Below are positions 3,631 to 11,339 of a stretch of 20,910 nt of DNA, in pieces. Source of the DNA: Candidatus Latescibacterota bacterium (GTDB lineage Bacteria > JAAXHH01 > JACQVL01); assembly GCA_016209865.1 (NCBI GenBank), contig JACQVL010000141.1, forward strand, positions 1-20,910, read 5' to 3'. Numbering within the stretch: the first letter of the stretch is position 1; each line of letters opens with the position of its first letter. The notes under the pieces were generated by a model. It was not told the DNA's origin. It ran no database searches and saw only the letters and a list, made by a program, of their open reading frames with translations. A program made the translations under genes and the position numbers.

Positions 3631-3656
3631 AGAGCGTTGGAACGTGCTAACGCTCT
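3631..3656. terminator. hairpin between convergent mltG and tolC-like genes
   Basis: AGAGCGTT (3631-3638) and AACGCTCT (3649-3656) make a perfect 8-bp stem around a 10-base loop. On the plus strand TTTC follows, a short T-run; on the minus strand there is none. The right arm is coding sequence for the last residues and stop of the tolC-like gene. It probably terminates mltG transcription, weakly. Confidence 0.45.
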
Positions 3657-5104
3657 TTCACCGGCCGTCCCGTTGCCTTGTCCAGGGCGGCCTGCGCGAT
3701 CTTGTAGTCGTACTGCGCGGTCACTAAGTTGGATTTCGCCCGCGCCAGGATCACCTGCGCGTTGAAGATGTCGAGCAGGGTGCCCGACCCGACCCGGTAG
3801 CGTTCTTGAGCCAGTCGAAGACCTTCCTCCGAGGCTAAGATGGTCTCGTTGCTCAGGGTCACAACTTGCCGGGCGGTCTCCAGGTTGAGGAGCGCCTGTT
3901 TGATGTCGAGCGCCGTGCTGCGTTTCAGTAGCTCCAGGTTCTCTTCGGCGACGAGCAAATCAGCTTGAGTACGGTCGATGTTGGCATAGGTTTGTGTGCC
4001 GTTGAGCACGTTGAGGGACATGTTTAGCCCGAAGGACACGGTCCAGTTTTTCCCGAAATTCCCGTACACCCGGTTCAGTTCCGAGCTAAACCGCTGGTAG
4101 CCGAGTGAGCCATTGACGGATGGAAGCAAAGCGCCGCGAGCGATCTTGACGCTGAGTTTTGCCGACTCGACACTTCCTGTTAATCGCCTGATATCCGGGT
4201 TCTCGCGGAGTGCGTCCGGCATCGCCTGATCGAGGGTCATCGGGACGGGGGGTTCCGTCGCGTCTGAGATGACATCATCCACGATATCGATGGGGGCATT
4301 CACGTTCAGTCCCATCGCCGTGTTGAGGACTGCTTTCGCCTGGAGGACGGCTTGCTGCTGCCTGAGCAGGGACACTCTCACTTCCCCTAAGTTCGCGCGA
4401 GCCTGGAGCACGTCCACTTTGGCGACAGACCCGATCTCGTACATGCTATCCGACCGTTTCAGTTGCTCTTCACTCAGCTTGACCTGTTCCTCGAACACCT
4501 CCTGGAGGCGCATCGCCTTGAGGAGGTTGTAATACTGCTGTTTGACCGTCAACGCCACCTGCCGCTCAGCCGAGTCCACGTTGAGCGAGGAATTCTGCAC
4601 ATTCTGACGCGCCTGCTGAATGTTACGCCACCACCGTCCGCCATCGTAGAGCGGCTGAGAGACCGAGAGACCCGATGAGTAATTGGTCAGGGAACTTCCG
4701 GGCTGGCTGGTCGGTACCCGGCCGTAGATGACGCTGCCGTCAGGAGCCCGGCCGATCGGGGCATTCTGCTGCACGATCCGGTCGCCTGATCGGTTATGGT
4801 TGACGTTCAGGATGGAGGCGTTGACCGTCGGCATGATACCCGACCAGGAGCTGTAAGCCAGCGCCTGCGAGGATTCGACCTGACGCTGGGCGATCAGCAC
4901 CTGGGAGTTCCGGTTGATGGCGATCTCGATGCATTGGGCAAGGGTGAGCTTGCCGCTCGCCGGCGGGACGGCCGTTTTCTCCTGGCCCCCGCCCTGGGAC
5001 TCTATCGCCCCGGCGCTGGAGCCGAGGATGAGGAGCATGACACATACGCCGAACAGAGAGCGAACCGGCCGAATCACGGACATCGGACGATCAGTCAGAT
5101 ACAT
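3647..5104 (-). CDS. TolC-family outer-membrane efflux/secretion channel
   Basis: TolC-type trimers form an outer-membrane barrel with a long periplasmic alpha-helical tunnel, paired with inner-membrane transporters for drug efflux or type I secretion. A signal peptide (hydrophobic core LFGVCVMLLILGSSAGA) is followed by LTLAQCIEIAINRN, the typical start of the OEP repeat. Two OEP-like halves follow, with SVSQPLYDGG, QARANLGEVRVSLL, SFGLNMSLNVLNG and RYRVGSGTLLDIFNAQVIL. The product has 485 residues, normal for the family. I moved the start to ATG 5104 because AAGGAG lies seven bases upstream; the upstream in-frame ATG at 5149 has no such site. No adaptor or transporter gene is adjacent, so the substrate is unknown. 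A 282-bp gap separates it from the RseB-like gene. Confidence 0.93.
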   Translation of the reverse strand: MYLTDRPMSVIRPVRSLFGVCVMLLILGSSAGAIESQGGGQEKTAVPPASGKLTLAQCIEIAINRNSQVLIAQRQVESSQALAYSSWSGIMPTVNASILNVNHNRSGDRIVQQNAPIGRAPDGSVIYGRVPTSQPGSSLTNYSSGLSVSQPLYDGGRWWRNIQQARQNVQNSSLNVDSAERQVALTVKQQYYNLLKAMRLQEVFEEQVKLSEEQLKRSDSMYEIGSVAKVDVLQARANLGEVRVSLLRQQQAVLQAKAVLNTAMGLNVNAPIDIVDDVISDATEPPVPMTLDQAMPDALRENPDIRRLTGSVESAKLSVKIARGALLPSVNGSLGYQRFSSELNRVYGNFGKNWTVSFGLNMSLNVLNGTQTYANIDRTQADLLVAEENLELLKRSTALDIKQALLNLETARQVVTLSNETILASEEGLRLAQERYRVGSGTLLDIFNAQVILARAKSNLVTAQYDYKIAQAALDKATGRPVKER

Positions 5105-5136
5105 ACCTCGACTCCTTTTCAAGAATGGATTCCCGC

Positions 5137-5154
5137 TCCCCGTCTTCACGGGGA
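5137..5154 (-). other. leader hairpin upstream of the tolC-like gene
   Basis: TCCCCGT and ACGGGGA pair perfectly over 7 bp around a 4-base loop, 32 bases upstream of the chosen start. No T-run follows, so a terminator is unlikely. It could structure the 5' untranslated region. Confidence 0.35.
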
Positions 5155-5386: not shown

Positions 5387-6538
5387 TCAGCCGAACGTCC
5401 CGCGCCGTCTGATGATCCACCAGCCGGCGACGAACACCGCCATGAGCGCGCCTCCTCCGGCCGTCCACCAGAGGTAGGACGAGCGGGATGATGCGAGCTC
5501 AGGGCTAAGCTCGACCACCCGGAGGGATTCGATCAGCTTGATCGATTCGGACTCCGCGATGTTGCTGACCACCGTATAGAGCCGGATGCCGTCGTGCCGT
5601 CGCAGGATGCTGAAGAGGCCCCGTTTCCAGATGTCGACCGTGCCGCGGCGTTCCGGCGTGCCGCCCGGCCAGGCACGGGCGGCCTGATCCGTCGCGAGCG
5701 CCACGCGTTCAAACAACGAAAACTGGGCCAGCCCGTCCGTGTACGTGAAATGGATGAGCGGGCGGCCTTCGTAGGAACGGACCCGTAACCTCTCCAGGTT
5801 GAACCCGCCAGGCAGGTAGACCGGAGCCGCAACCCGGAACCCGGCGATGCGTTGCGCTTCCTGAATCGACCCGCACCCGATGATCGATGCTTCCTCCACC
5901 GGACGATTCGCCCATTCATCGGTCGCGAACAGCCGGTCATCGAGCGCCGGGTTGAGAGTCAGGCTGGAAAACCAGGTTTCCGTGATGACCCGTTCCGCCT
6001 CGTCACGGTCTTCAGCCCTCAGTACCAGCCCCGTCTGGGTATCGATCCAGGCGATTTTCGTGGATCGTCCCGCATGCTTCGGCCGAACCGTCAAGACGAC
6101 CGTTTCCCGGCCGAGCAGGACGTCCCGGCCGCGGACCGTGACGTCGTAATTGGCCATCAGCAGGTCGGTATCGCTGAACCGCAGGCCTGAATCCAGCACG
6201 CGCTCGCCGGGGCCGCGCCGGTGGGAGTAGGCGATCGAGTCGGCCTTCGGCTCCCGCCAGTAGACATCATCGTCGATCCGGATGGTCACGGCGCCCGGCC
6301 TCGGAGCGAGCACGTCCACCCGGTCCCGGCGCGGTCGTTTGTGGAACACCCGCTGGACGACCCGCTCCGTGTCCTCGCCCGCCGGACTCGTCTTGCGCAT
6401 GATTGTCCCCTGATAGTCGCAGACTTTTGGAGCGTTCAGCGTCCTGGTGAGGATCGCCTCGACGCTCTCCGTCTCCGCCATCGAAGGGGCGACAAGAACG
6501 CAGAGCAGCAACCAGAGCCCGAAGAGAGGTTTCACGCG
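5387..6538 (-). CDS. RseB/MucB-like sigma factor regulatory protein with C-terminal membrane anchor
   Basis: RseB proteins bind the periplasmic part of an anti-sigma factor and sense mislocalised lipids or lipoproteins through a LolA-like fold. A signal peptide (about 1-20, ending PSMA) is followed by a LolA-like N-terminal domain with YQGTIMRK, RVFHKRPRRDRVDVL and TGLVLRAEDRD. A C-terminal domain like MucB/RseB C contains YLPGGFNLERL and FTYTDGLAQFSLFE. Unlike classical soluble RseB, it ends in a hydrophobic helix (GGGALMAVFVAGWWII) with RRR after it, which would anchor it to the inner membrane. I chose GTG 6538 because it directly precedes KPLFGLWLL and has AGGA nearby; TTG 6556 is the longer alternative. 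It lies directly after the anti-sigma gene, as in rpoE-rseA-rseB operons. Confidence 0.85.
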   Translation of the reverse strand, partial: RVKPLFGLWLLLCVLVAPSMAETESVEAILTRTLNAPKVCDYQGTIMRKTSPAGEDTERVVQRVFHKRPRRDRVDVLAPRPGAVTIRIDDDVYWREPKADSIAYSHRRGPGERVLDSGLRFSDTDLLMANYDVTVRGRDVLLGRETVVLTVRPKHAGRSTKIAWIDTQTGLVLRAEDRDEAERVITETWFSSLTLNPALDDRLFATDEWANRPVEEASIIGCGSIQEAQRIAGFRVAAPVYLPGGFNLERLRVRSYEGRPLIHFTYTDGLAQFSLFERVALATDQAARAWPGGTPERRGTVDIWKRGLFSILRRHDGIRLYTVVSNIAESESIKLIESLRVVELSPELASSRSSYLWWTAGGGALMAVFVAGWWIIRRRGTFG

Positions 6539-6561
6539 CGTCGATTCCTGAGCCAAACGGG

Positions 6562-7074
6562 TTATTTCTTCTTCACGTTGCTAACGAGCACCGACCCGAA
6601 CGCGCCGTTCGAGAAGACGTTCTGATCGGCCACCAGCGCATGTTCCTTCAGGTAGAACCTCATCTCCTCTCCCTCGCGCATCCCCTGAGTCAGGGTAGTG
6701 GGTTGGGACGTCAGGAGATACCAGACGACGGTCGCCCCGGCGATGACGACGGCGGCGGCCGCGCTGATGGCGTACAGCGGGCGATGAAAGACCGTCAGGC
6801 GGTCGCCCAGCCATGCCCGATGAGCGGACAACCGGATCATTCGGGTCCGGGCGCGTTGCTCACGGATGGCCGTCATCATCGCAGACTGAAGCGACGGGTC
6901 AAGCGGAGGAATCCGAACCGCCTGGAGCAGGGTCTTGACCCGCTGCACGTCAGCCACGGCCCCCGCACAGGCTGGACACGACTCGATGTGGTACGCGATG
7001 GCGGCGATCTCATCGGCCGGGCACGCCCGCTCCAGGTACAACGTCATCTGCCTTTGCACATGAGAGCATGTCAT
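6562..7074 (-). CDS. zinc-finger anti-sigma factor (membrane-anchored)
   Basis: The N-terminus has the zf-HC2/ZAS arrangement C3, H29-x3-C33-x2-C36 (HIESCPAC), which holds ECF sigma factors at the membrane. A single transmembrane helix spans about 100-121 (AISAAAAVVIAGATVVWYLL). A short outside domain of about 50 residues follows and ends in KKK. At 170 residues the length is typical. ATG 7074 has AGGAGG seven bases upstream. The gene follows the sigma factor by 19 bases and precedes the RseB-like sensor by 23, so the three form a sigma/anti-sigma/sensor set. Release of sigma would presumably depend on proteolysis of this protein; no protease gene is in view. Confidence 0.9.
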   Translation of the reverse strand: MTCSHVQRQMTLYLERACPADEIAAIAYHIESCPACAGAVADVQRVKTLLQAVRIPPLDPSLQSAMMTAIREQRARTRMIRLSAHRAWLGDRLTVFHRPLYAISAAAAVVIAGATVVWYLLTSQPTTLTQGMREGEEMRFYLKEHALVADQNVFSNGAFGSVLVSNVKKK

Positions 7075-7093: not shown

Positions 7094-7735
7094 CTAAAAA
7101 TACCCCTTGAGCCGCTTGCTCAACAGACTCTTCAATTTCAGCCGCCCGTGATGCAGGCGCGACATGACCGTCCCTTCCGGGCATCGCAGGATTTCCGCGA
7201 TCTGTTTGTGCGAGAACCCCTCCAGGTCGAAGAGGACGACGACCGTGCGATGCCGTTCAGACAGCGCGTTCAGCGCGTCCGCGATCGCCCGTTGCAGTTC
7301 GTCCTGCTCCAGGAGGTCGTGCGGGGTCTTCGGATGCGCTCTGAGATCGACCGAGAGCGCCGTCGCCTCCCCGTTTTCCCGGTGGGACAACAGATCGGAG
7401 AGCGACAGCATCCGACGCCGAGTCTCCCGCTTCCGGTGGTTGATACATTTATTGATCAGAATCCGGTAGAGCCAGGTCGAGAACCGGTACTGGGTGTTGA
7501 ACCGGTCTAACGTGCGGTACACTTCCAGGAACGCATCCTGTACGAGATCACGCGCGTCGTCAGGATGGCTGAGCATCTGGTAGGCGAGCGAATACGCTTT
7601 CTCCAGATACCGCCTCGTCAGCTCATCGAACGCCAGCCCGTTGCCCGTCTTCGCCTGCTCGATCAGGTGCCGCTCGTCCTGTTTCTCCAAGGACGCCTCC
7701 GGCTCAACCGGAATCGTTCTCTGCTGAGTATACAT
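7094..7735 (-). CDS. ECF-type RNA polymerase sigma factor (RpoE-like)
   Basis: Region 2 is clear: GLAFDELTRRYLEKAYSLAY, DARDLVQDAFLEVYRTLDRF and FSTWLYRILINKCINHRKR. Region 4 has LNALSERHRTVVVLFDLEGF and the helix-turn-helix KQIAEILRCPEGTVMSRLHHGR. There is no region 1.1 or 3, as expected for an extracytoplasmic-function factor of 213 residues. A longer linker (about residues 108-140) joins the two. It should direct RNA polymerase to envelope-stress promoters and be held by the anti-sigma factor encoded next. No autoregulatory GAAC-type -35 is visible in the 26-bp gap before it, so it is probably transcribed from further upstream. The Shine-Dalgarno is weak. Confidence 0.95.
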   Translation of the reverse strand: MYTQQRTIPVEPEASLEKQDERHLIEQAKTGNGLAFDELTRRYLEKAYSLAYQMLSHPDDARDLVQDAFLEVYRTLDRFNTQYRFSTWLYRILINKCINHRKRETRRRMLSLSDLLSHRENGEATALSVDLRAHPKTPHDLLEQDELQRAIADALNALSERHRTVVVLFDLEGFSHKQIAEILRCPEGTVMSRLHHGRLKLKSLLSKRLKGYF

Positions 7736-7761: not shown

Positions 7762-9111
7762 TTACGTCGGATGGTAGAACCGCTCGTAGAACACCCGCGT
7801 AAATTCCTGGGATTCCTTGGAGAACAGGTTCAAGCCGCGCTGTTCCCAGACTTCCTCGATGATACTGAACGATTCCTCCCAGGAGGTTGCCTTCTCCAGT
7901 TGAGCCAGGACGTCGTAATAGAACTGACTGTCTTTATTAAAGAGCTTCCGGATGAACATCCGTTCCAGTTTTTCGTTGATCTCGACGGGGGGGAGGGAGG
8001 AGACGGGCACACGGTCGCGCGGCGTAAGCGACGGGGAGGTGGTGACCACGTCAGCCATCCAGGATGGCGGAACTGGTGGGGTCTGACTCTCGGTCGGTTG
8101 GGGCGTCGGAGGCTCTGGAACAGCCTCCAGTGGGGGTATGGAGAGTGAAGGAGACACGACGTCCTCCGGAGCCACCGGAGGTTCGACGTCCTCCGCCGGT
8201 GGCTCCGGGACGCTCACCGCGCTCCATTCCGTCTCAACCGGCAGGGCTGACGGTTCCGGGGTGGCGTCCAGGACGGAGGTGGGTTCTGTCAGCGGGACCG
8301 CCTCGGCCGCCGGGGCTACAGGCTCGATAGCGGGGGGAGAACTCCGGTCTTCCTGGAGCGCTTTCCACAATTCCTGGCTGCTCAGCGTCTGGCGTCCGCG
8401 CGCTCGTTCCCCCTCGATGACCGCCTGATAGTGCTGAAAATATTCCTCCAGATGGCGTGTTTCGAAGAGCGATGTCCAGACCTCCAGGCTCACCTGGTCG
8501 GTCTCCATCGTCCCCCCGATCAGGCAGAGGATTTCCGACACGGCGGCCATCGCGGCCGCCAGCGTCTCCATCGGGTGCTGCTGGTACGCCTCGTGTTCGA
8601 CGTTGGCCAGGAGTTGCTCGAGCAGGTCCTGGTCGAGCCGGGTATCGCTCTGGGCGGCGCTGTGCGCAGTCAGGGCGTCGACGTAGTACGATTCGCGTTG
8701 GAACCGGATGAGTAAGTCGGCCACGTGACGGCTGTCCACCACACTGGACTGCCGGAACAGGAGGGCGGAGAGAGCCGGGATGGGCTGATGCAGGTAGGAG
8801 ATCTCATGACGGATCGCCCCTTCGATGATCTTCTCACAATCGGGACGCGTGAACCGGGCGGTGTCCTTGACGGCGTGGTCGAACTGATGGGCGAGCGTCT
8901 GGACATCGGAGTCCTGAAAATCAAAACGGGGCTGGACGAGCCGGCGTGCGTACTCCGGGGCGTACCAGCTCTCGACGCCTAATTGAAACCAGGTCTTCAC
9001 GAACCACGGGGCGTGCGACCCCCTGATCTCTCGAAGCCGGGCCGACTCCTTCCCGTCGAGCACCGTGTCAACTAACCGCATGACTGCTGTTGAAGGCTCC
9101 ATCTCCATCAT
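7762..9111 (-). CDS. unrecognised protein with proline-rich linker, coupled to the HU-TPR gene
   Basis: I do not recognise this 449-residue protein. Residues 1-250 are mostly helical and charged, with no signal peptide or transmembrane segment, so it is probably cytoplasmic. Residues about 255-370 form a low-complexity linker rich in Pro, Glu, Val and Ser (for example PPAEDVEPPVAPEDV). A compact C-terminal segment of about 75 residues follows (INEKLERMFIRKLFNKD, SFSIIEEVWEQRGLNLFSKE, FTRVFYERFYHPT). Two folded ends joined by a flexible arm suggest a scaffold or adaptor. Its ATG overlaps the HU-TPR stop by four bases, so the two are probably made together, and the sigma factor follows 26 bases later. 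A link to sigma control or envelope sensing is inferred from position only. Confidence 0.85.
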   Translation of the reverse strand: MMEMEPSTAVMRLVDTVLDGKESARLREIRGSHAPWFVKTWFQLGVESWYAPEYARRLVQPRFDFQDSDVQTLAHQFDHAVKDTARFTRPDCEKIIEGAIRHEISYLHQPIPALSALLFRQSSVVDSRHVADLLIRFQRESYYVDALTAHSAAQSDTRLDQDLLEQLLANVEHEAYQQHPMETLAAAMAAVSEILCLIGGTMETDQVSLEVWTSLFETRHLEEYFQHYQAVIEGERARGRQTLSSQELWKALQEDRSSPPAIEPVAPAAEAVPLTEPTSVLDATPEPSALPVETEWSAVSVPEPPAEDVEPPVAPEDVVSPSLSIPPLEAVPEPPTPQPTESQTPPVPPSWMADVVTTSPSLTPRDRVPVSSLPPVEINEKLERMFIRKLFNKDSQFYYDVLAQLEKATSWEESFSIIEEVWEQRGLNLFSKESQEFTRVFYERFYHPT

Positions 9112-10190
9112 TGTCGCTCATTCCCCTTTCGGGCCAGCAGGTTCGCTCGTTGATACATCTCTAACGCTTTGACCCCGGCTTTCTTTTTATCGTACAGCAC
9201 GCCGAGATGCCAGCACGCTCGACTCTCATCCGGCCGGACCTTGAGGAGGGCCTCAAACATCCGGATGGCGTCGTCATGCCGCGCCTGATGGTCGTAAGCC
9301 CGGCCAAGATGAAAATACGCATCGAAGCACTCGGAATCGAGTTCTAACACCCGCTCGAACTCCTGAATCGCCCGGCCGTACAACCCACGTTTGGTATGGA
9401 TGACCCCCATGTTGTAGTGGGCGATCACACTGGATGGGTTGAGTTCCAGGGCTCGCTTGAATTCGTTCTCCGCTTCGACGTAGAACCCCAGTTCGCTGTG
9501 GAGACGGCCCAGGTGCTGGAGGGCGTCGAGGTTGTCCCGGTCGATCCGGAGGATGCGTTCATACTCCTCGATCGCGTTCTCATAGTCTCCCTGTTGCTCC
9601 CGGATGCGTCCGAGCTGCATGATCGCGCCCAGATGGACGGGATTCTGGTGGAGGATGAGGTGGCATTGTTCGAGCGCGCTGTCGTACAACTGGTGGGCGA
9701 TGTAGGCGACAGCCAGGGCGAGCCGGGCGTCGGGGTCGTCCGGGTTGGCGTTGACCGCGTCAACCCGGACGATGAGCCCGTCCTCAGGCTGGGGAGGGGA
9801 GGGTTTCACATCGCGTTCATCGGGCATAAGGCCTCTCGCTTCTGAAGAAAGAAACCGGGGCAATTCCGGCGGGACGATCACGACCGCTTGATCGGGAACA
9901 CTCGCCGGGTGGCTGGACGCCTCAATCATGTCCTTCAGGGCGTCGAACGGGACAAACCGGGGCATCGGACGGGCCGGCAGCCGTAAGGCATCGTTCGTGT
10001 TCAAATCCCGCGCGACCCGTGACCGACGGTACGTAACCTCGAACGTGCCGAACCGGCGGATCTCCACGCGTTGATGGTTCAGCAGCGCTTCCGTGATGAG
10101 CGACAGGAATGAATCCAGGGTCGCCGCGACCCTGGCTCTCGGATAGCCCGATGTCCGGGTGACAGCAGCGACGAGATCGGCTTTCGTCAT
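9108..10190 (-). CDS. HU/IHF-type DNA-binding domain fused to six TPR repeats
   Basis: Residues 1-92 read as an HU/IHF domain: TKADLVAAVTRTSGYPRARV, then RRFGTFEVTYRRSRVARDLN and PRFVPFDALKDMI. The DNA-intercalating arm is altered: at the position of the conserved proline (HU P63, in RNP) there is leucine (R61-D62-L63). A linker of about 50 residues follows, then six tandem 34-residue TPR units (about 145-350), with repeats such as AIMQLGRIREQQGDYENAIEEYERIL. HU proteins normally have about 90 residues and no partner domain, so this is a fusion that probably links DNA binding to a protein scaffold. GAGGA precedes ATG 10190. The PorV-like gene ends 34 bases upstream and the coupled unknown gene follows. 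Confidence 0.92.
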   Translation of the reverse strand: MTKADLVAAVTRTSGYPRARVAATLDSFLSLITEALLNHQRVEIRRFGTFEVTYRRSRVARDLNTNDALRLPARPMPRFVPFDALKDMIEASSHPASVPDQAVVIVPPELPRFLSSEARGLMPDERDVKPSPPQPEDGLIVRVDAVNANPDDPDARLALAVAYIAHQLYDSALEQCHLILHQNPVHLGAIMQLGRIREQQGDYENAIEEYERILRIDRDNLDALQHLGRLHSELGFYVEAENEFKRALELNPSSVIAHYNMGVIHTKRGLYGRAIQEFERVLELDSECFDAYFHLGRAYDHQARHDDAIRMFEALLKVRPDESRACWHLGVLYDKKKAGVKALEMYQRANLLARKGNERQ

Positions 10191-10224: not shown

Positions 10225-11256
10225 TCAGAATTCGACAAACGCCGCGATCCGATGGATAGTGCCGAACGCGTTATGGCTGACGAACGCGTACTCGACGCCC
10301 GGCACGATCCGATGACGGCGCACCGCGACGGCTGGGACCCGGACCCCGGCGCCGGCTGTCACCCCCGTCGCCTCGGAGCCGACACGCAGGGCGACGGTGT
10401 TCTGCAGGACGTACTCGATGCCCAGGTGGGTGCTCACGCTGGCCTGGCCGAGGGATTGGGCGTCCGTCTTGTGCCGGCCCTCAAACCGCACGTCCGCGTC
10501 CGCCGCGACCACGACACGCCCGTGCAACCGGGCGACCTCGCGTTCGTACGCGAAACCCGTCTTCAGAAGGGGATTCAGGTATTCCTTGCGTCCCGTGTCC
10601 CATGCGAGGACGGTCGTCGTCAGGTTCATCACCTGGGCCCCGAAGGACAACCCGCGAGCCGGGCGGACGAGGAGGCTGGCGTCGAGTCCCGCGCCCAGAG
10701 CACCGGCGACTCCGACCGATTTTCGGATGATTTTGAGGTTCCCCCCGAACGCCAGTCGAGGGGTGACGCGACTGGCGAACGAGAGCAACACCGCGTATTC
10801 CGCGTCACTCACGTACCGTTCGACGAACGGCCGGTTCCGCTGGCCGTTCCCCAGGGGGGCGTCGATCGGCTGGCTGGGGTCCGGAAGCCGGGTCAGCGGA
10901 ATGTCATCGACGCCCAGCCGAATCACGGACACCCCGACCCCCGCCTGCCGGCGTCCCGGCGGGAGCGGATGGGCGTACGCCGCGTAATCATACGCCAGCC
11001 CGGCGAGTTGCTCCGAATGCATCACCATGGCGGCGCGCCGGGAGAGGAACGCCAACCCCGCCGGGTTCCAGTAACCCGACGTCACATCGTCGGCGACCGC
11101 CACGAACGCCCCGCCCATGCCCAGTGCCCGCGGCCCGACTCCGATGCTCAGGAACTCTCCGGCATACTTCGTCGCGTGGACAGCAGCGGGCGTCATCCCC
11201 AGAAGGAGGAGCAGGAGAAGACCGGGAAACACTCCGGGTACTCGTAACCTGTCCAT
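10225..11256 (-). CDS. PorV/PorQ (UPF0164)-type outer-membrane beta-barrel protein
   Basis: A signal peptide with a leucine run (PGLLLLLLLGMTPAAVHA) is followed by the family signature FLSIGVGPRALGMGGAFVAVADD and YWNPAGLAF. Alternating-hydrophobicity strands continue to a C-terminal aromatic residue (FVEF), as in outer-membrane barrels of the FadL/PorV type. In Bacteroidota PorV serves type IX secretion, but homologues occur widely without it, and no other such component is seen here, so the role is open. ATG 11256 is favoured over an in-frame GTG at 11277 because it places the basic n-region of the signal peptide correctly; the ribosome-binding site is weak in both cases. It is first in the minus-strand group and has its own promoter. 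Confidence 0.88.
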   Translation of the reverse strand: MDRLRVPGVFPGLLLLLLLGMTPAAVHATKYAGEFLSIGVGPRALGMGGAFVAVADDVTSGYWNPAGLAFLSRRAAMVMHSEQLAGLAYDYAAYAHPLPPGRRQAGVGVSVIRLGVDDIPLTRLPDPSQPIDAPLGNGQRNRPFVERYVSDAEYAVLLSFASRVTPRLAFGGNLKIIRKSVGVAGALGAGLDASLLVRPARGLSFGAQVMNLTTTVLAWDTGRKEYLNPLLKTGFAYEREVARLHGRVVVAADADVRFEGRHKTDAQSLGQASVSTHLGIEYVLQNTVALRVGSEATGVTAGAGVRVPAVAVRRHRIVPGVEYAFVSHNAFGTIHRIAAFVEF

Positions 11257-11310
11257 CGGCTCGTCACAGGTGAACACAACCGATTGTTCTGTCTGAGCGT
11301 TACATTCGGC

Positions 11311-11339
11311 AAAATATCATTCCGCTTCAGAAAAGTCAA
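11311..11339 (-). promoter_or_regulatory. sigma70-like promoter of the minus-strand envelope operon
   Basis: On the minus strand TTGACT (11339-11334) is separated by 17 bases from TATTTT (11316-11311). A TG one base upstream of the -10 gives an extended -10. It lies 55 bases before the PorV-like start and is divergent from the polysaccharide promoter. Confidence 0.65.

Follow-up and report, generated by a model that had tools for sequence, protein, structure and literature searches.

A conserved fusion of an HU-type DNA-binding domain to a six-repeat TPR superhelix in two bacterial lineages

The window analysed here, a stretch of 20,910 nucleotides from a Candidatus Latescibacterota bacterium, carries on its minus strand a gene of 360 codons (10190..9108; ATG at 10190, TGA at 9108) that encodes an HU-type DNA-binding domain followed by tetratricopeptide repeats (TPRs), termed here HU-TPR. 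The span given by the first-pass annotation, 9108-10190, is correct, and the strand is the minus strand. All of the neighbouring features described below lie on the same strand. A gene for a PorV/PorQ-family outer-membrane protein (10225..11277; NF033709, 113.7 bits, cut-off 90) ends 34 bp upstream of HU-TPR and is preceded by a sigma-70-like promoter, TTGACT-17-TATTTT (11311..11339), recognised as a consensus match only. On the other side, the HU-TPR stop codon overlaps by 4 nt (ATGA) the start of a gene for a 449-aa protein of no known family (7762..9111), which has no match in Pfam or NCBIfam and is composed of a helical N-terminal part, a proline-rich middle and a conserved C-terminal helical domain. 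It is followed by genes for an ECF sigma factor (7094..7735; PF04542 and PF08281; 69-73% identity to order-mates), a zf-HC2 anti-sigma factor whose sequence, on inspection, probably includes a membrane helix (6562..7074; PF13490, 31.7 bits), a MucB/RseB protein (5387..6556; PF03888, 57.5 bits) and a TolC-type outer membrane efflux protein (3647..5149; PF02321, 227 bits), the last of which keeps this downstream position in every order-mate with an assembled region. HU-TPR had been described as standing upstream of a sigma/anti-sigma/RseB set, and this holds, with one extra gene (7762-9111) in between. From the PorV gene through the RseB gene, the successive junctions measure 34 bp, a 4-nt overlap, 26, 19 and 5 bp. 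These short gaps, together with the one promoter match ahead of the PorV gene, make a single transcription unit likely in the window, and the PorV gene is likely its first gene.

The proposed architecture, an HU fold joined through a linker to six TPRs, is confirmed by both profile searches and structure prediction. The HU/IHF domain (residues 1-92; 9915..10190) matches Bac_DNA_binding over residues 1-89 (PF00216, 75.8 bits, cut-off 22.4, profile positions 1-89 of 90), and its closest relative in a comparison with solved structures is the HU protein 5eka (E 2.4e-15). The C-terminal two thirds of the protein match many TPR models, several Pfam TPR models being above cut-off in the region of about 145-350. 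An AlphaFold model built from 13 homologues (mean pLDDT 82.6) places an HU fold at residues 3-92, in which the elements follow the standard HU order (helices 3-14 and 18-37, strands at 42-81, helix 83-92), so that the two helices, the three-stranded sheet with its beta arm and the C-terminal helix are all present. In the model, residues 94-133 of the linker (residues 93-134; 9789..9914) are disordered, with pLDDT below 50. In the remainder (residues 135-360; 9111..9788), a capping helix (135-148) precedes six helix pairs (153-359). The pairs show the 34-residue repeat of the TPR superfamily, and a Foldseek search with the TPR part retrieves designed TPR superhelices, OGT and MamA. No signal peptide is apparent in HU-TPR, as the HU domain begins at Met1.

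Full-length HU-TPR has been found in 20 genomes, 14 of which belong to the window's phylum and six to Latescibacterota. The window's phylum, whose relatives appear in public contigs under the labels Candidatus Latescibacterota, Gemmatimonadetes and uncultured bacterium, seems from accession names and genome counts to be a small phylum near Latescibacterota. It is little known and uncultured, and the names of the samples, together with published work on sponge Latescibacterota, suggest that it is largely sponge-associated. Within it, the whole architecture is encoded in one continuous frame in 14 of 16 genomes, with 36-50% identity between orthologues. In the other two (G001 and G011), the sigma cluster begins at a contig end, the contig starting only just ahead of the sigma gene. 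HU-TPR is thus unassembled in them, and a true loss of the gene was rejected. An artefact, be it a misread start, a frameshift or a chimeric contig in which separate HU and TPR genes were joined, is so improbable as to be negligible, since the architecture occurs in 20 genomes of two phyla, in continuous frames and with end-to-end alignments free of frame breaks; the same frames dispose of the suspicion that the HU part is no more than a plain TPR gene read from a wrong start. Among close relatives, dN/dS is 0.03-0.20 for the HU part, 0.13-0.25 for the TPR part and 0.12-0.81 for the linker, which contains no invariant column. The HU part is under purifying selection and is therefore maintained rather than decaying. 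Invariant in the 14 orthologues are F47, G48, F50, P77, F79 and P81 of the HU core, R55, R58 and R61 of the arm, and K86. Invariant residues are densest at the arm tip (7 of 12 positions) and, after it, in TPR5-6.

The association with the sigma/anti-sigma/RseB set is likewise conserved. In all 14 genomes of the phylum in which the region is assembled, HU-TPR, the ECF sigma factor, the zf-HC2 anti-sigma factor, RseB and, where assembled, TolC follow each other on the same strand, while the genes further upstream of HU-TPR vary between genera. The PorV-family gene adjoins HU-TPR only in the window genome and in G013. The 449-aa protein is restricted within the phylum to G000, G013 and G011 (cut by the contig end in G011), and it stands between HU-TPR and the sigma gene in the window and in G013. 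In genus g3, HU-TPR and the sigma gene are mostly separated by 119 bp containing a conserved promoter-like element, and the two genes may be transcribed apart there. This element, TTGAAGATA-N-ATGTATACGGG, is conserved in the gap in 12 genomes (L037-L048) and probably represents the promoter of the sigma operon.

A different setting was encountered in Candidatus Latescibacterota, where a profile search of 64 genomes, with the best few candidates scored per genome, revealed full-length HU-TPR in six of them (G073-G078; loci L132-L137), at 428-486 bits. These proteins align with the window protein end to end, without gaps in the TPRs and with 35-39% identity; they keep H62-P63, and their linker is short or almost absent. 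Where the contig is long enough, the gene order is argS - HU-TPR - holA - recJ, with a 4-nt overlap of HU-TPR and holA in five of the six genomes, and RseB was not found in any of the six. The architecture thus occurs independently of the sigma operon, and a tie to that operon as the sole ancestral role of HU-TPR is unsupported. The survey of architecture and neighbourhoods across genomes that the first-pass annotation had called for yields 20 genomes, two lineages and two distinct neighbourhoods. Its suggested link between the nucleoid or a promoter and an envelope complex survives in part: the linkage to the sigma set stands within the phylum, whereas a fixed envelope tie does not, given the holA-recJ setting of Latescibacterota and the RseB not found there. 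Two further frames with HU domains were also noticed. One Latescibacterota genome encodes a 261-aa protein that combines an HU/IHF domain with N-terminal pentapeptide-like repeats (L139:8611-9396), and G125 contains a 384-aa frame with an HU domain at its end (L138:6934-8088), the N-terminal part of which resembles an out-of-frame translation, the start being probably internal.

Among the best few candidates per genome in 384 genomes across the domain, no further full-length HU-TPR was found. Relatives composed of the same six-TPR module without HU are present in other phyla, scoring 148-260 bits with the full-length profile, and among them G142, G220, G357, G021, G238 and G377 reach 175-260 bits; their N-terminus is acidic or short, and their surroundings are varied housekeeping genes. 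By eye, the loci L205:7644-8537, L049:9314-10360 and L206:7240-7875 lie beside uppS-like/cdsA-like, NAD-kinase-like/dxs-like or other housekeeping genes. From these settings, HU-TPR could be read as a general adaptor for DNA transactions such as replication or repair, next to which the sigma operon would be a functionally meaningless neighbour. The argS, holA and recJ context, with its overlap, agrees with such a role, and so do the g3 genes, where HU-TPR has its own promoter-like element and mostly 119 bp before sigma, as well as the unrelated housekeeping surroundings of the TPR-only relatives. Yet all assembled genomes of the phylum share the order HU-TPR, sigma, anti-sigma, RseB and TolC despite differing upstream genes, which leaves this reading doubtful, though a real contender.

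The arm of the HU domain differs from that of ordinary HU proteins at its tip. In sampled ordinary HU/IHF domains, N62 is present in 44 of 44 and P63 in 42 of 44, the two exceptions being short HUs with isoleucine at 63. In contrast, all 14 orthologues of the window's phylum share the tip A60-R61-D62-[L/F]63-N64-x-N66, with L63 in 13 and F63 in one, and in the window the codons for R61-D62-L63 (10002..10010, minus strand) replace R61-N62-P63. The loss of Pro63 noticed in this one sequence is accordingly borne out across the phylum, whose HU-TPR lacks the intercalating proline, a residue that the Pfam model does not require. Genomes of the phylum contain about four more short HU/IHF genes each, and those examined in the window's own genome keep R-N-P; as sampled, the loss is thus confined to HU-TPR within the phylum. 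Among the HU-TPR lineages, it is limited to the window's phylum. Two short stand-alone HUs of Latescibacterota (L092:1477-1785 and L094:1492-1800) have RNI for RNP, an independent replacement of Pro63. Other changes of HU-TPR affect the body, in which K80 is replaced by V, M, T and others, K83 mostly by D, and position 82 is aromatic; compared with ordinary HU, the HU part has on average a lower net charge, down from about +8 to +4.5. The arginines of the arm at 55, 58 and 61 are present in 14 of 14 orthologues.

Could the HU fold then serve dimerisation or protein binding alone, in a dimeric TPR adaptor that no longer binds DNA? The first-pass annotation had raised protein-only use of the fold, and the alteration of P63, N62, K80 and K83, the lower charge and the TPR-only relatives of other phyla, which function without HU, all speak for it. 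However, R55, R58, R61 and K86 never vary among the orthologues, and conservation peaks at the arm tip, which lies outside the dimer core and would be needless for a pure dimeriser. The invariant arm arginines and the dN/dS of the arm, which lies at about 0-0.14 in all but one of eight pairs and at 0.43 in the remaining one, weaken the proposal, and we regard it as unlikely. The arm looks as if it had been re-tooled for DNA binding rather than abandoned, and binding without sharp bending is plausible. Leucine or phenylalanine can intercalate in other DNA-bending proteins and may do so here, so bending need not have disappeared together with the proline.

On whether the fusion arose once or twice, its two parts give differing indications. 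The TPR tree separates the two HU-TPR groups, but the AU test leaves a single clade unrejected (p 0.10), and the HU tree joins the groups weakly (55/61). Both groups have position 82 changed (F/Y, H once) and K80 lost, and these shared changes favour a single fusion.

In the model that we consider most likely, HU-TPR would act in the cytosol as an HU dimer, bending DNA differently from ordinary HU and tethering to it a partner held by the TPRs. Its conserved HU core suggests that the HU part dimerises; the arginine arms would hold DNA, and the rebuilt tip RDLN of the window's phylum probably alters or lessens bending. The six-repeat TPR superhelix, carried on a flexible linker some 40 residues long, would keep a partner protein near the bound DNA. 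That partner, or target, would most likely belong to the ECF sigma/anti-sigma/RseB switch in the window's phylum, where HU-TPR might for instance help to tune the expression of that operon, and to DNA metabolism in Latescibacterota. The two peaks of invariant residues, at the arm tip and in TPR5-6, fit a protein with two working ends; the retention of the sigma-switch gene order despite only 36-50% identity of HU-TPR counts for an adaptor, and the holA overlap with recJ downstream in Latescibacterota fits a DNA-based role. On the other hand, body lysines such as K80 and K83 are often used for flanking DNA, and their loss, along with the drop in net charge, counts against a DNA tether, as does Asp62 in the arm tip, which is unfavourable beside phosphates. 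The absence of the sigma linkage in Latescibacterota and the 119-bp gap of g3 count against a partner in the sigma switch. Overall, there is as much to be said for the tether model as against it. A more specific version, in which HU-TPR would be a nucleoid-bound adaptor whose RDLN arm reads DNA without a proline kink and whose TPRs bring the sigma/anti-sigma envelope switch to particular chromosomal sites, is considerably less probable, and we consider it a long shot; if true, HU-TPR would physically link the chromosome to envelope stress signalling.

Few bacterial chromatin proteins have been studied as much as HU/IHF, which are usually viewed as small architectural dimers. HU-TPR suggests that such proteins can serve as targeted adaptors. 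The protein-recruiting superhelix, conserved as part of the fusion, and the arm tip, rebuilt in one lineage, together amount to a natural experiment on the purpose of the intercalating proline. No description of the fusion was found in the literature searched, the coverage of which is incomplete, with many subscription papers outside it, and no already described family was matched there. Burroughs and colleagues reportedly surveyed novel HU clades in 2017, and HU-TPR may have been mentioned there earlier. New here are the six Latescibacterota HU-TPR with Pro63 beside holA-recJ and the TPR-only relatives in other phyla.

Judged by its profile match, fold and arm arginines, the N-terminal domain belongs to the HU/IHF superfamily. 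With the free HU/IHF dimers (PF00216; Bst HU, E. coli HU, IHF), HU-TPR has the fold, the core and the arm arginines in common. Unlike these stand-alone proteins of about 90 aa, it comprises 360 aa with six TPRs, has D62-L/F63 for N62-P63, has lost K80/K83 and is aromatic at 82. As in the sigmaE-RseA-RseB envelope-stress switch, an ECF sigma factor, a zf-HC2 anti-sigma factor and RseB are encoded beside HU-TPR; that system is not known to have an HU-TPR partner. HU_acti_C and HU_bacL also consist of an HU core and a long C-terminal extension, but their tails are lysine-rich or highly charged (PMC5683647), whereas the extension of HU-TPR is a folded TPR superhelix. Charged C-terminal extensions were described in a classification of thousands of HU/IHF sequences, from the text of which the words "TPR" and "tetratricopeptide" are absent (PMC5683647). 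The TPR-only relatives share the six-TPR module and differ in the absence of the HU domain. The Latescibacterota HU-TPR have the same architecture as the window protein and differ from it in H62-P63, the short linker and the argS/holA/recJ setting, and this pairing of lineages, one with Pro63 kept and one with it lost, makes the question of bending directly testable.
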